NCBI RefSeq assembly: GCF_030503895.2
Contig: NZ_CP129970.2
Coordinates: 62,001 to 126,000 of the forward strand
DNA: 64,000 nt
Source of the DNA: Marivirga arenosa
GTDB lineage: Bacteria; Bacteroidota; Bacteroidia; Cytophagales; Cyclobacteriaceae
Reading direction: 5' to 3'
The first letter of the stretch is position 1, and each line of letters opens with the position of its first letter. A program made the position numbers and the translations under genes. The notes below the pieces were generated by a model. It worked only from the letters and a program-made list of their open reading frames with translations. It did no database searches and was not told the DNA's origin. Below are positions 19,951 through 24,069 of the stretch, one piece after another.

Positions 19951-20427
19951 TCAATATTTAATTCCTAATCTTTTATAAATAAAATGCATTAACCAAGCTG
20001 GCCCTATTAAAAGAAACTGTAAATCTTTTAAGAAGGATGGCTTTTTACCTTCTATTTTATGCCCCCAAAATTGGCCAACCCAGGCTAAAAAGAAAACTAT
20101 TAAAGCGATTCCCCATAATGGTAAAAAATTGAATTGATCTGCCCATCTTGCAACCGCAATGCACAAAATGGCAAAGGCCAACATACCAAAGGAAATTGGA
20201 ATAGACAGAGTGATATAATAAATCAATACTAGAACGAGTACAACTACTGCCCAATTGTTGTAATATCCATCTCCAAGAAAGTAAGTAAGACTATCATTTG
20301 GAATGGAATAAAGCAATGCTACCACACTCCAAAATATAAGCGGCACGCAAATCCAATGAACTTTCTTATTTGTAGCATTTTTATGGCTTGCCCCATATTC
20401 TTCTAGTAGTGAATCTATCTTTCTCAT
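19951..20427 (-). CDS. Mpo1-like (DUF962) membrane protein
   Basis: 158 residues with four hydrophobic segments after a short N-terminal stretch with the family motif ExYGASHKNATNK-xHWICVPL. Conserved His residues (H16, H24) and the late WVGQFWGHKIEGKKPSFLKDL block match the DUF962/YGL010w family. The yeast member Mpo1 is an Fe2+-dependent dioxygenase for alpha-oxidation of 2-hydroxy fatty acids, and the His set there binds iron. A similar lipid role in this bacterium is plausible but untested. It is divergent from the his operon leader. Confidence 0.85.
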   Translation of the reverse strand: MRKIDSLLEEYGASHKNATNKKVHWICVPLIFWSVVALLYSIPNDSLTYFLGDGYYNNWAVVVLVLVLIYYITLSIPISFGMLAFAILCIAVARWADQFNFLPLWGIALIVFFLAWVGQFWGHKIEGKKPSFLKDLQFLLIGPAWLMHFIYKRLGIKY

Positions 20428-20541
20428 ACGACCAAAATAGAGATTTTTATTTTATGAATCAATATTAAAATTATTGTAAAAATTCTTAACACTTTTTTTT
20501 AAAAAATTTATAAAATTATTAGAGTTATTAAAAAAGCTTAA

Positions 20542-20549
20542 TACATTTG
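20542..20549 (+). promoter_or_regulatory. Promoter -7 element of the his leader/operon
   Basis: TACATTTG matches the Bacteroidota TAnnTTTG box exactly. The -33 element is only approximate (TTAG at 20519-20522, 19 bases away). The predicted transcription start is near 20552-20556, almost on the AUG of the leader peptide (20556), so the leader would be translated from a nearly leaderless mRNA. Confidence 0.6.
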
Positions 20550-20555
20550 CAGTAA

Positions 20556-20645
20556 ATGAATACAAACAGCACAAATATCTACATCTCAAAAAATGCAACT
20601 CATGCATTTCATGCTGTTCACGTATTCCATCATTCCTCTTTGTAA
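20556..20645 (+). CDS. hisL: his operon leader peptide (29 codons, five His)
   Basis: A short frame ATG 20556 to TAA 20645. Residues 15-26 read THAFHAVHVFHH, so five of eleven codons from 16 to 26 are His. That is far above chance and just what a ribosome-mediated histidine attenuator needs: scarcity of charged tRNA-His would stall the ribosome there. The gene lies 123 bases upstream of hisG on the same strand. No other feature explains it. The name hisL is used by analogy with enteric bacteria; there is no sequence homology claim. Confidence 0.8.
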   Translation: MNTNSTNIYISKNATHAFHAVHVFHHSSL

Positions 20646-20652
20646 GAGGGAT
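20632..20652 (+). promoter_or_regulatory. RNA hairpin at the end of the his leader ORF
   Basis: Arms ATTCCTCTT (20632-20640) and AAGAGGGAT (20644-20652) pair over 9 bp with one G-U and a 3-base loop that includes the start of the leader stop codon. It follows directly on the last His codon, where a stalled or finishing ribosome would mask it. A second, weaker hairpin (GCAG-GATT-CTGC, 20674-20685) is followed by a T-rich run, and an AT-only 10-bp hairpin spans 20693-20716. I cannot tell by eye which acts as terminator or antiterminator. Confidence 0.5.
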
Positions 20653-20746
20653 ATTCACACTATATTGCCATAAGCAGGATTCTGCGCATCATTTTATTTA
20701 ATAGAAATTAAATAAACAATTCTAATCAAATTCTCTTTTTATTAAA

Positions 20747-20758
20747 TTATCGAAATCA
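20747..20758 (+). promoter_or_regulatory. TTATCGAAATCA repeat, copy 1 (before hisG)
   Basis: Exact 12-mer ending 10 bases before the hisG ATG. Identical copies occur at 24684-24695 and 29473-29484, each in the upstream region of a plus-strand gene. The role is unknown. Confidence 0.35.
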
Positions 20759-20768
20759 GAAATTAAAA

Positions 20769-21626
20769 ATGAATACTTTAAAAATAGCTATACAAAAATC
20801 AGGTAGATTAAGTGAAGATTCACTAAAACTAATTAAAGAATGTGGTATCAAATTCAGTAATGGGAAAGGTAAATTAAAAGCAGTTGCAGATAACTTTCCG
20901 TTAGAATTTCTATTTCTCAGAGATGATGATATCCCTGGCTATGTGGAAGATGGAGTAGCTGACTTAGGTATTGTTGGTGAAAATGTATTAGTGGAATATG
21001 AAAAAGACGTTGAGCTTGTAAAAAAATTAGGCTTCTCAAAATGTAGATTATCAATTGGAGTAGACAGAAATTGGGATTATAAAGACATTTCTGAATTAGA
21101 TGGTAAAAGTATCGCAACCTCCTACCCTAAAATCCTTGAAAATTTCCTTAAAGGAAAAAATATCAAGGCAGAAATTCATGAAATCAGTGGTTCTGTTGAA
21201 ATTGCTCCTAGCATAGGATTGGCGGATGCGGTATGTGATATTGTAAGTTCAGGAAGTACTTTACTTAGCAATGGCCTAAAAGAAGCGGATGTAATTATGC
21301 GATCTGAAGCTGTTTTAATCTCTGGAAAAAAGTTATCTTCTGAACAGAAAGAAATTTTAAATCAGTTAATATTTAGAATCGAAGCAGTTCAAGCAGGTAA
21401 AAACAATAAATATATTTTATTAAACGCTCCTAATGATTCTATTGATGAAATCATAAGCCTACTGCCAGGTATGAAAAGCCCTACCGTGTTGCCATTAGCA
21501 ATGGAAGGCTGGAGTTCATTACACTCAGTAGTGAAAGAAGATGAATTTTGGGATGTTATAGAAAAATTAAAAGCTGCTGGTGCGCAAGGAATATTAGTTG
21601 CCCCAATAGAAAAAATGATTCTATAA
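20769..21626 (+). CDS. hisG: ATP phosphoribosyltransferase, long form
   Basis: First enzyme of histidine synthesis, joining ATP and PRPP. At 285 residues it is the long, hexameric form (HisG-L), so no HisZ partner is needed. It opens with KIAIQKSGRLSEDSL, has the D-D-D-I-P-G-Y motif near residue 56 and the PRPP loop DIVSSGSTL near 158. The C-terminal ACT-like domain, which binds histidine for feedback inhibition, is present (LPGMKSPTVLPL, then the GAQGILVAPIEKMI end). Regulated by the leader upstream (inferred). Confidence 0.97.
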   Translation: MNTLKIAIQKSGRLSEDSLKLIKECGIKFSNGKGKLKAVADNFPLEFLFLRDDDIPGYVEDGVADLGIVGENVLVEYEKDVELVKKLGFSKCRLSIGVDRNWDYKDISELDGKSIATSYPKILENFLKGKNIKAEIHEISGSVEIAPSIGLADAVCDIVSSGSTLLSNGLKEADVIMRSEAVLISGKKLSSEQKEILNQLIFRIEAVQAGKNNKYILLNAPNDSIDEIISLLPGMKSPTVLPLAMEGWSSLHSVVKEDEFWDVIEKLKAAGAQGILVAPIEKMIL

Positions 21627-21661
21627 TATATAATTGAACCTAAATATTTAATTACACTGAA

Positions 21662-21675
21662 CAGTTGTACAACTG
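21662..21675. repeat. 14-bp perfect palindrome between hisG and hisD
   Basis: CAGTTGTACAACTG is its own reverse complement, centred in the 87-base gap between hisG and hisD. It could be a small RNA hairpin that tunes hisD expression or a protein site. No T-run follows, so it is not a terminator. Confidence 0.4.
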
Positions 21676-21713
21676 AAAGTAATCAGTATTTCAGAAAGAA
21701 TTAGCAAAAGGAT

Positions 21714-23000
21714 ATGAAAGAATATATTAATCCCAAAAAGGAGAATTGGGAAGAACTATTAAAAAGACCCACTGAATCGCTGCATGATATAAGGAAAATA
21801 GTGCAGCCGATAATGGATGAGGTAAAGAATAACGGTGACAGTAGCGTAAAAAACTACACGGAAAAATTTGATGGTATATCGATAAATGATCTTTTAGTAA
21901 CAAAAAAAGAAATAGAAGCTGCAAGCAAAAAAGTAGATCAGAAGCTTAAAGATGCGATTAAAGTAGCACACGAGAATATCACTAGATTTCATAAGGCACA
22001 GAAAATAACTGATTTAAGGACAGAAACCATGCCTGGCGTTCTTTGTGAGAGAAAATCAGTGGCTATACCAAAAGTTGGCTTATACATACCTGGCGGAACG
22101 GCTCCTTTGTTTAGCACAGTATTGATGTTAGCGGTTCCTGCAAAAATTGCGGGCTGCAAGGAAATTGTTCTTTGTAGTCCTCCAGATAAAGAAGGAAACA
22201 TTCATCCGGCAATTCTATTTACAGCGGAATTAGCAGGTATCACCAAAATTTATAAAGTAGGCGGTGCTCAAGCCATAGCAGCCATGACCTATGGTACAGA
22301 AAGTATTCCTAAAGTGGATAAAATTTTTGGCCCTGGAAATCAATATGTAACTGCAGCAAAACAATTGGCAAGCTTAGATGGCGCTGCTATTGATATGCCT
22401 GCTGGGCCTTCAGAAGTTTTAGTTTATGCGGATGAAGATGCTAATCCAGCATTTATTGCTGCTGACTTATTATCTCAAGCGGAACATGGAGTGGATAGCC
22501 AGGTGATTTTTGTTACTACAGCTCAAGACATTATCCCAACTTTACAAAAGGAGATTTATCATCAGTTAAGTGAGTTACCACGTTGGGAAATAGCTGATAG
22601 ATGTCTACAAAATAGTGCCGTTTTTATTTTAAAAGAAGAAAAAGAATGCATTGACTTGATCAATATTTATGCTCCTGAACATTTAATTTTATTAACTAAA
22701 AACGCAAGAGAGATAGCTGATAAAATTGAAAATGCGGGCTCTATCTTTATTGGCTACTATACACCAGAATCAGCAGGTGATTATGCTTCTGGTACAAACC
22801 ATACTTTACCAACAAACGGTGCTGCAAGAGCCTACAGTGGTGTTTCTTTAGACAGTTTTATCAAGAATATAACCTATCAAGAAATTACAGCTGAAGGATT
22901 ACAAAAACTTGGCCCCTATGTGGAAGAAATGGCGGAAGCTGAATCTCTAAGAGCGCATAAAAATGCAGTAACTGTGCGTCTTAATAGTATTAAAAACTAA
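21714..23000 (+). CDS. hisD: Histidinol dehydrogenase
   Basis: NAD-dependent zinc enzyme for the last two steps of histidine synthesis. The 428-residue sequence shows the standard blocks: SVAIPKVGLYIPGGTAPL near residue 115, KIFGPGNQYVTAAKQ near 203, DMPAGPSEVLVYAD near 227, SQAEHGVDSQ near 256 with Zn-ligand residues, and GDYASGTNHTLPTNGAA near 357 (catalytic His). It lies 87 bases after hisG and 22 before hisC and is clearly co-transcribed. Confidence 0.97.
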   Translation: MKEYINPKKENWEELLKRPTESLHDIRKIVQPIMDEVKNNGDSSVKNYTEKFDGISINDLLVTKKEIEAASKKVDQKLKDAIKVAHENITRFHKAQKITDLRTETMPGVLCERKSVAIPKVGLYIPGGTAPLFSTVLMLAVPAKIAGCKEIVLCSPPDKEGNIHPAILFTAELAGITKIYKVGGAQAIAAMTYGTESIPKVDKIFGPGNQYVTAAKQLASLDGAAIDMPAGPSEVLVYADEDANPAFIAADLLSQAEHGVDSQVIFVTTAQDIIPTLQKEIYHQLSELPRWEIADRCLQNSAVFILKEEKECIDLINIYAPEHLILLTKNAREIADKIENAGSIFIGYYTPESAGDYASGTNHTLPTNGAARAYSGVSLDSFIKNITYQEITAEGLQKLGPYVEEMAEAESLRAHKNAVTVRLNSIKN

Positions 23001-23022
23001 TCATAATCTATAGATTAAAATT

Positions 23023-24069
23023 ATGAATTGGAAAAAACTTGTTTTACCCCATATTTTAAAATTACAAGCTTACTCTTCTGCCAGAGATGAGTTTTCAGGT
23101 GATGCCAAAGTATTTTTGGATGCAAATGAAAATCCGTTTGATGAGGAACAAAACAATTGGAATCGATATCCTGATCCTTTACAGAAAAATTTAAAAGCTG
23201 AGCTTGAAAAAATAAAAGGTATAGCAGCTGAAAATATGTTTTTGGGCAATGGTAGTGATGAAGCGATTGACTTACTTTTTAGAATCTTTTGTAAAGCAGG
23301 TGAATCTAATGTTATTACATGCCCTCCAACATATGGAATGTATAAGGTATCCTCTGCGATACATAATGTTGAGAATGTCGAAGTGCCTCTGACACCTGAA
23401 TTCCAATTGGATGTTAAAAACATTTTGGATGCTGTAAACGAAAGTACCAAATTATTATTCATTTGCACACCGAATAACCCTACGGGAAATAGTTTAAGAA
23501 AAGATAGTATTTTAGAAATACTTGAAACGTATCCAGGTATTGTAATTATAGATGAGGCATATATTGATTTCTCGAAAGAAGAATCTTGGATTAAAGAATT
23601 AGATCAATATCCTAATTTAGTAATCCTACAAACTTTAAGTAAAGCTTGGGGATTAGCTTCTGCCCGGCTAGGAATTGCTTATGCTAATACAGAATTAATA
23701 AAGTTGCTAAACAAGGTGAAAGCTCCATACAATATTAGTGGACCAAGTCAAAAAGTTGTATTGGAAGCTTTACAAAATCCGGAAATATTTAAGAAACAGC
23801 TTAAGATCATATTAAGTGAAAGAGACAGATTGCAAGTGGCTTTACAGGATATACCTTCTGTTAAAAAAGTATATGAAAGTGATGCTAATTTTCTCTTAGT
23901 AAAAATAAATCAGGCAAAAGATCTTTACCAAAAATTGATAGAAAAAGAAATTGTAATTCGGGATCGTTCTAACGTTCAATTATGTGATGATTGTTTAAGG
24001 ATAACAGTAGGTACAGAGGAAGAAAACAAACATCTCATCAAAAATTTACAGCTCCTTTTGATCGATTAA
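23023..24069 (+). CDS. hisC: Histidinol-phosphate aminotransferase
   Basis: PLP-dependent fold-type I enzyme acting on imidazole acetol phosphate. The 348-residue protein has LDANENPF near residue 30, CTPNNPTGN near 150, I-I-D-E-A-Y-I-D-F near 178 and the Schiff-base Lys in LSKAWGLASARLG near 208. The 3' end overlaps the convergent NUDIX gene by 24 bases. The remaining his genes (hisB, H, A, F, I) do not follow, so the operon here ends at hisC. Confidence 0.96.
   Translation: MNWKKLVLPHILKLQAYSSARDEFSGDAKVFLDANENPFDEEQNNWNRYPDPLQKNLKAELEKIKGIAAENMFLGNGSDEAIDLLFRIFCKAGESNVITCPPTYGMYKVSSAIHNVENVEVPLTPEFQLDVKNILDAVNESTKLLFICTPNNPTGNSLRKDSILEILETYPGIVIIDEAYIDFSKEESWIKELDQYPNLVILQTLSKAWGLASARLGIAYANTELIKLLNKVKAPYNISGPSQKVVLEALQNPEIFKKQLKIILSERDRLQVALQDIPSVKKVYESDANFLLVKINQAKDLYQKLIEKEIVIRDRSNVQLCDDCLRITVGTEEENKHLIKNLQLLLID

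Follow-up and report, generated by a model that had tools for sequence, protein, structure and literature searches.

The window, a stretch of 64,000 nucleotides from Marivirga arenosa (contig NZ_CP129970.2, positions 62,001 to 126,000), carries hisG, hisD, and hisC consecutively on the plus strand (20769-24069). A short ORF rich in His codons is located between hisG and a divergent gene that starts at 20427. Among the records compared, the closest named relatives of its HisG are from Marivirga (91% identity). The hisB and hisA/hisF genes are placed elsewhere in the same genome, and no His-rich ORF with a promoter box was found in the stretches read around them. As a separate observation, a search for ilvD gave 0 matches in this genome and succeeded in 14 of 14 control genomes, so that the organism may be auxotrophic for branched-chain amino acids. 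The features of the region are listed below.

20519-20522, plus strand: TTAG, weakly matching TTTG, where a -33 element is expected (19 bp upstream of the -7 box)
20542-20549, plus strand: -7 promoter box TACATTTG, consensus TAnnTTTG (90 of 98 distinct leaders; box identity after PMC6847099, accessible part)
20554-20555, plus strand: predicted transcription start at 20554 and 2-nt 5' UTR (from the geometry given in the accessible part of PMC6847099)
20556-20645, plus strand: His leader ORF, MNTNSTNIYISKNATHAFHAVHVFHHSSL* (translation, relatives, frame count)
20558-20571, plus strand: 5' arm of a predicted start-codon:His-codon stem (MFE fold, swap test)
20575-20579, plus strand: ATATC from base 20 of the ORF, a phased motif (position in relatives)
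20591-20609, plus strand: internal leader hairpin AAATGCA-ACTCA-TGCATTT (fold and alignment A1)
20612-20627, plus strand: 3' arm of the predicted start-codon:His-codon stem, in the His-codon region (MFE fold, swap test)
20632-20652, plus strand: 9-bp hairpin around the leader stop codon, ATTCCTCTT-TGT-AAGAGGGAT (conserved helix, arm swap test)
20660-20669, plus strand: CTATATTGCC, the window form of the ATATCGCC motif after the stop hairpin (alignments A1 and A2)
20674-20685, plus strand: short hairpin GCAG-GATT-CTGC (A1: 4 pairs, every one of them present in at least 8 of the 10 sequences)
20769-21626, plus strand: hisG, ATP phosphoribosyltransferase (TIGR00070, E 2.7e-58)
21714-23000, plus strand: hisD, histidinol dehydrogenase (TIGR00069, E 8.9e-163)
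23023-24069, plus strand: hisC, histidinol-phosphate transaminase (TIGR01141, E 1.1e-111)

The leader ORF comprises 29 codons and ends with TAA at 20643-20645, 123 nt upstream of hisG; His occupies residues 16, 19, 22, 25, and 26 of its peptide. An earlier sequence-only reading had given the coordinates, the frame, and the His positions exactly as we find them, and the box that it placed 6 bases before the ATG is there as well (TACATTTG, then CAGTAA, then ATG). His content by itself is unconvincing for this ORF: among the 683 short ORFs of the window (ATG start, 10 to 50 codons, longest per stop, both strands), 12 have at least four His residues and 3 have a higher His fraction than the leader. 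An exact TAnnTTTG box 3 to 10 nt upstream distinguishes the leader from the other 11.

The decisive point is conservation: because the leader is conserved in relatives, it is more than a chance ORF. By a loose rule, a His-rich short ORF precedes hisG in 107 of 111 loci (all but L023, L027, L028, and L030), two of which, L001 and L002, are the window itself. Removal of 9 duplicates leaves 98 distinct leaders. In L077 at least, the rule wrongly picked another frame, and its choice is doubtful for L010 and L029. In the last 45 nt of the ORF of 52 representatives, CAT/CAC triplets are distributed over the three frames as 251:25:14, leader frame first, and synonymous differences occur in 93 of 674 aligned His-codon pairs. 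In eight Marivirga-type leaders, residues 1 to about 12 vary, but six of the eight share an identical AFHAVHVFHHSS near the end. The earlier proposal of a His leader peptide upstream of hisGDC is borne out by these ORFs, and the check that it had suggested, a look for relatives with no His-rich frame at this position, did not overturn it. Its view that the arrangement evolved in this member of the Bacteroidota does not stand, since 72 of 97 further loci, taken from a phylum search and from the remaining, more distant relatives, likewise have a His-rich ORF before hisG (25 have none); another set of 30 loci has 23 with such an ORF and 7 without. Judged by sequence, the window contains what characterizes an amino-acid leader peptide, a short His-codon-rich ORF directly upstream of a his operon, and a his leader peptide of the known sensing kind is close to certain, its most likely task being to sense the histidine supply. 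The variant predicted here is near-leaderless and terminator-less and has a hairpin around its stop codon.

An exact TAnnTTTG box is found 3 to 10 nt before the ATG in 90 of the 98 distinct leaders, a count favored by our selection, in which each locus was represented by the ORF containing the largest number of His residues, read from whichever start had the best box at 3 to 21 nt (3 to 40 nt for later locus sets). As a control, such a box (3 to 10 nt) precedes 1 of 296 other ATGs in the upstream regions of the 52 representatives. Exactly 19 bp upstream of the box, TTG is present in 40 and TTTG in 25 of the 52 representatives, the window having TTAG; this distance is the spacing of a putative two-part promoter. 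According to the accessible part of PMC6847099, the Flavobacterium johnsoniae box spans T-12 to G-5. Because this published geometry puts the final G at -5, transcription in the window is predicted to start at 20554, leaving a 5' UTR of about 2 nt; likewise, the 51 of 52 representatives whose box lies 6 to 10 nt from the ATG would have 5' UTRs of 2 to 6 nt. A near-leaderless start of the window leader is very likely, and the nearly absent 5' UTR claimed in the sequence-only reading is supported, as a prediction, by the box spacing. Leaderless mRNAs are uncommon where they have been measured in the phylum: they make up 5.5% in F. psychrophilum (PMC9723704, accessible part), and about 3.7% of the 5' UTRs of Bacteroides thetaiotaomicron are under 10 nt (PMC7366714, accessible part).

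A different box was noticed in relatives. TAnnTTGY, described in the accessible part of PMC9723704 as the SM5 alternative promoter box of F. psychrophilum (-12 to -5), is found exactly 4 nt before the hisG ATG in 34 of the 98 distinct upstream regions (e.g., L012, L035, and L052). All matches before hisG have this spacing, with about 1.3 expected over 16 positions, the 34 being related and non-independent. With transcription driven by such an SM5-like box, the hisG mRNA would begin at its AUG and the leader would be skipped. The window itself has no second promoter immediately before hisG.

The intrinsic terminator that a classical terminator/antiterminator attenuator requires was not found in the window: strict and relaxed scans alike detect no strong terminator between the ORF and hisG, in agreement with the sequence-only reading. 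Among the leaders of close relatives that end in HHSS, the type of the window, 1 of 69 distinct sequences has an intrinsic terminator, a weak one; for the other leaders of close relatives the count is 1 of 27. Because 26 of these 27 also have none, terminator loss extends beyond leaders with the HHSS ending; the window's own family contributes at least 7 of the 26 (L010, L011, L013, L015, L018, L019, and L029). In a wider Bacteroidota set, by contrast, an intrinsic terminator precedes hisG in 52 of 69 non-HHSS leaders and, in a figure valid for this set only, in 11 of 11 such leaders of the window's own family; the three HHSS leaders of the set have no terminator. The relaxed scan gives 13 of 52 HHSS representatives (3.8 expected from shuffles) versus 51 of 65 others (6.8 expected). 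Within a single family, predicted terminator-type his leaders exist side by side with terminator-less ones, the kind to which the window leader belongs. In the wider set, eight leaders have both a terminator and a box no more than 10 nt from the ATG; a predicted near-leaderless start and the absence of a terminator are not strictly linked.

The Trp leaders of the same genome serve as an internal control. Two of them, MQKRNTNISWWWTSKI and MINKFNSAWWWHLITSEPG, stand in tandem upstream of a trpE-like gene, with a terminator after each (L240, near G000:C1:668706-670106; L246-L253 in the Marivirga genomes read). Both leaders and both terminators are present in 8 of 8 Marivirga genomes read (16 of 16 terminators), these being the genomes with a trpE-like locus among nine, of which the ninth has weak matches only and was left out. 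Of 30 loci, 2 gave no Trp-containing leader ORF, and a terminator is present in 25 of the other 28. Because the scan finds the Trp terminators, the absence of a terminator at his is neither a blind spot of the scan nor a property of the organism, the scanners used on the his and trp sets differing slightly in start position and output. The first Trp leader has its box 5 nt before the ATG and is predicted to be near-leaderless. The His and Trp leaders in one genome form a matched pair with the same ribosome and RNA polymerase, in which both are predicted to be near-leaderless and terminators are found only at trp.

The region 20553-20775 folds at -36.8 kcal/mol (z -3.4), with 0 of 200 shuffles as stable, and the hairpins before hisG that the sequence-only reading had considered possible are predicted by this fold. 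The ORF together with the stop hairpin has a mean z of -2.8 versus mononucleotide shuffles (52 representatives). A helix of at least 5 bp enclosing the stop codon occurs in 49 of 49 distinct sequences, compared with 40% of shuffles and 26 of 48 terminator-type leaders. Its arms covary (CATCTC/GAGATG in Roseivirga-type leaders versus ATTCCTC/GAGGAAT in others). Pairing was tested on 71 HHSS-type leaders, on the 52 representatives (similar ones dropped), or on 30 of the 52. The arms of the stop hairpin pair better than swapped arms in 13 of 17 clusters, which are not phylogenetically independent (Wilcoxon p 0.02). In the internal hairpin, six of seven pairs are changed on both sides in at least one of the 10 A1 sequences.

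A stem between the start codon and the His codons is suggestive. The start-codon region pairs with the His codons better than with swapped partners in 13 of 17 clusters (Wilcoxon p 0.004), in a test picked after matches had been noticed by eye, and in an open scan of 351 window pairs this pair ranked first (t -2.3, not significant). No competing antiterminator pairing beyond chance was detected among the 351 window pairs in 30 sequences of 17 clusters, a scan of low power. Pairing of the spacer with the His cluster, the 5' arm, or the 3' arm of the stop hairpin is no better than with swapped partners (8, 10, and 5 of 17 clusters, respectively); the 5' arm alone gave p 0.008 against the spacer in an uncorrected test of the 52 that treats relatives as independent. 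A mid:tail pairing (z -9.4) is an artefact of overlapping windows and was not used. cmscan of 20300-21000 (E up to 5) gave no covariance-model match to the Rfam his leader. Its sole match, to sR18 at 20921-20964 inside hisG (26.9 bits versus a gathering threshold of 45), is probably due to chance.

How the leader acts on hisGDC can be explained in several ways. Classical intrinsic-terminator attenuation through weak AT-rich hairpins between 20646 and 20768, as suggested in the sequence-only reading, would agree with the intrinsic terminators used by more distant family members and much of the phylum, with a spacer whose predicted folding is slightly stronger than that of mononucleotide shuffles (mean z -1.25 over 51 sequences), and with the excess in the relaxed scan. 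However, 7 of the 13 relaxed matches are the stop-codon hairpin itself, and none lies between the window ORF and hisG. An advancing ribosome would open the stop-codon hairpin, which gives the wrong sign of regulation, and this hairpin was rejected as a terminator also because the weak U stretch that follows it in some species is absent from the window. With no terminator in the window, one in 69 leaders of its type by the strict scan, and no alternative pairing beyond chance in the low-power scan of 351 pairs, a hairpin attenuator switch finds no confirmation, and we consider it rather unlikely. Somewhat less probable again is translational attenuation, in which the position of the leader ribosome would govern access to the hisG start, as proposed for actinobacterial leuA. 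CAU His codons are complementary to AUG, and some species have 7-nt matches (e.g., TTTCCAT to ATGGAAA; GTATTC/GAATAC was picked out by eye), but three tests of this pairing were all negative. The His cluster pairs with the hisG start no better than with other gene starts (mean fraction of weaker controls, 0.49, in 55 of 71 loci, those with at least four control starts) and no better than in swapped pairs (8 of 17 clusters), and in simulated stalling the openness of the hisG start is 0.499 versus 0.506 (p 0.17, 52 leaders). Leader-controlled access to the hisG start, the mark of a translational attenuator, was not found in these predicted pairings.

The ORF might also be translated without sensing His and serve to tune translation or reinitiation or to protect the mRNA. 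A general proposal for bacteria is that translation reinitiates downstream of leader genes (PMC4833913, accessible part), but the leader stop, 123 nt from hisG, is far beyond the 10-14 bp peaks of that proposal, and the recurrence of His clusters directly before hisG and of Trp clusters before a trpE-like gene speaks against a non-sensing role, which we hold to be very improbable. That the ORF is a functionless product of chance, as the three window ORFs with a higher His fraction might suggest, is refuted by the conservation of its frame, promoter spacing, and stop hairpin, and hardly any likelihood is left to it.

Two motifs accompany the leader. ATAT[CT] begins at base 20 in 38 of the 94 leaders whose box spacing is at most 10 nt, and at any other base in at most 7. 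It has the same phase in the first Trp leader of the window's genome, and it begins at base 20 of that leader in five of eight Marivirga genomes. To judge from its position, it may be a site at which RNA polymerase pauses. Marivirga- and Belliella-type leaders (A1 and A2) have, after the stop hairpin, another copy that is almost identical in sequence (ATATCGCC); the ATATCGCC motif was not seen in the Algoriphagus- or Roseivirga-type alignments (A3 and A4).

The best explanation, and in our opinion a reasonably probable one, is a His-sensing leader peptide with a ribosome at a near-5' AUG and an output without an intrinsic terminator. Comparison of relatives bears out the leader frame with its His codons, the distance of the promoter box, the hairpin at the stop codon, and the lack of a detectable terminator; the 5' end, the stalling, the response to His, and a part for Rho are inferred. 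A ribosome would load at the AUG within about 2 nt of the transcript 5' end. When charged His-tRNA is scarce, it would stall on the His cluster, and the stall would lead to expression of hisGDC without the intervention of an intrinsic terminator; when charged His-tRNA is plentiful, it would reach the stop codon and leave. The most likely option for the output, though a tentative one, is Rho-dependent termination. The C-rich, G-poor His-codon stretch would be a Rho loading region, covered by the stalled ribosome and with the stop-codon hairpin just ahead; after normal ribosome release, Rho would load and end transcription before hisG. With an assumed ribosome footprint, a stall at the first His of the terminal cluster would let the stop hairpin form, whereas a ribosome at the stop codon would cover it.

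Base composition gives a weak signal for this option. From the stop codon to hisG, the C/G ratio has a median of 1.31 in 52 HHSS leaders and of 0.95 in 48 terminator leaders, with rut-like C patterns in 23 and 7 of them, respectively; against control upstream regions, whose lengths were unmatched, the difference is marginal (1.31 versus 1.17, p 0.046). The rut pattern is absent from the window itself. Because simulated stalling leaves the spacer equally open (0.542 versus 0.540 with a ribosome at the stop codon, p 0.09), masking would have to act at the His cluster itself. More speculatively, and with low probability as a whole, a clade of Bacteroidota may have swapped the terminator output while keeping the sensor: a 70S ribosome would start at the 5' AUG, pairing with the His codons would close the AUG so that only the pioneer ribosome reads the leader, ATATC pauses would synchronise polymerase and ribosome, and Rho would decide.

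The phylum is naturally without Shine-Dalgarno sequences (PMC6847099, accessible part), and the leader, if confirmed, would offer a natural system for ribosome start on leaderless mRNA in such a phylum. It would also mean that, within one bacterial family, the output half of attenuation can be exchanged and the sensing half kept.

In the enteric his operon leader (hisL attenuator), His codons cluster in a short ORF immediately before hisG. The window leader is like hisL in being a short clustered-His ORF directly before hisG; unlike hisL, it has no detected U-tract terminator, no Rfam his-leader match, and almost no predicted 5' UTR. The tnaC leader of Escherichia coli acts by Rho-dependent attenuation and stalls on excess free Trp through its nascent peptide. 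The mechanism proposed here would resemble tnaC in that a stalled ribosome masks Rho loading next to the leader ORF, but the stall would be caused by starvation at His codons.

In mycobacteria, one study reportedly found leaderless polycysteine ORFs. Mycobacterial cys leaders are without conserved terminator hairpins, as in the window type, and the authors of that study suggest Rho (PMC1262725, accessible part). Streptomyces lividans has leaderless leader peptides with and without terminators, among which LeuL1 is leaderless and without a typical terminator, the combination predicted for the window leader (PMC8079986, accessible part). These actinobacterial LeuL1 and cys leaders differ from the his leader in phylum, amino acid, and promoter. 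For actinobacterial leuA, pairing of Leu codons with the leuA Shine-Dalgarno sequence is proposed, whereas for the his leader the tests for pairing between the His cluster and the start of hisG were negative.

For Bacteroidota, titles and the opening parts of abstracts gave no description of a near-leaderless, terminator-less his leader, which subscription work (Vitreschak 2004; Lopatovskaya 2010) may contain. The accessible part of PMC9723704 reports a structured 5' element before hisG in F. psychrophilum and other Flavobacteriaceae, as well as clues to leader-peptide attenuation at amino-acid operons of F. psychrophilum; this element likewise stands before hisG. The terminator-type his leaders of other Bacteroidota, those of 11 same-family genomes in the wider set included, have a His-cluster ORF before hisG as the window does, but theirs is accompanied by a strong intrinsic terminator. 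Of those 11 same-family leaders, 9 have no exact box within 40 nt of the ATG and 2 have one at 13 and 16 nt; 4 of the 11 have a one-mismatch box at 4 to 10 nt, with which a short 5' UTR would be possible there too.
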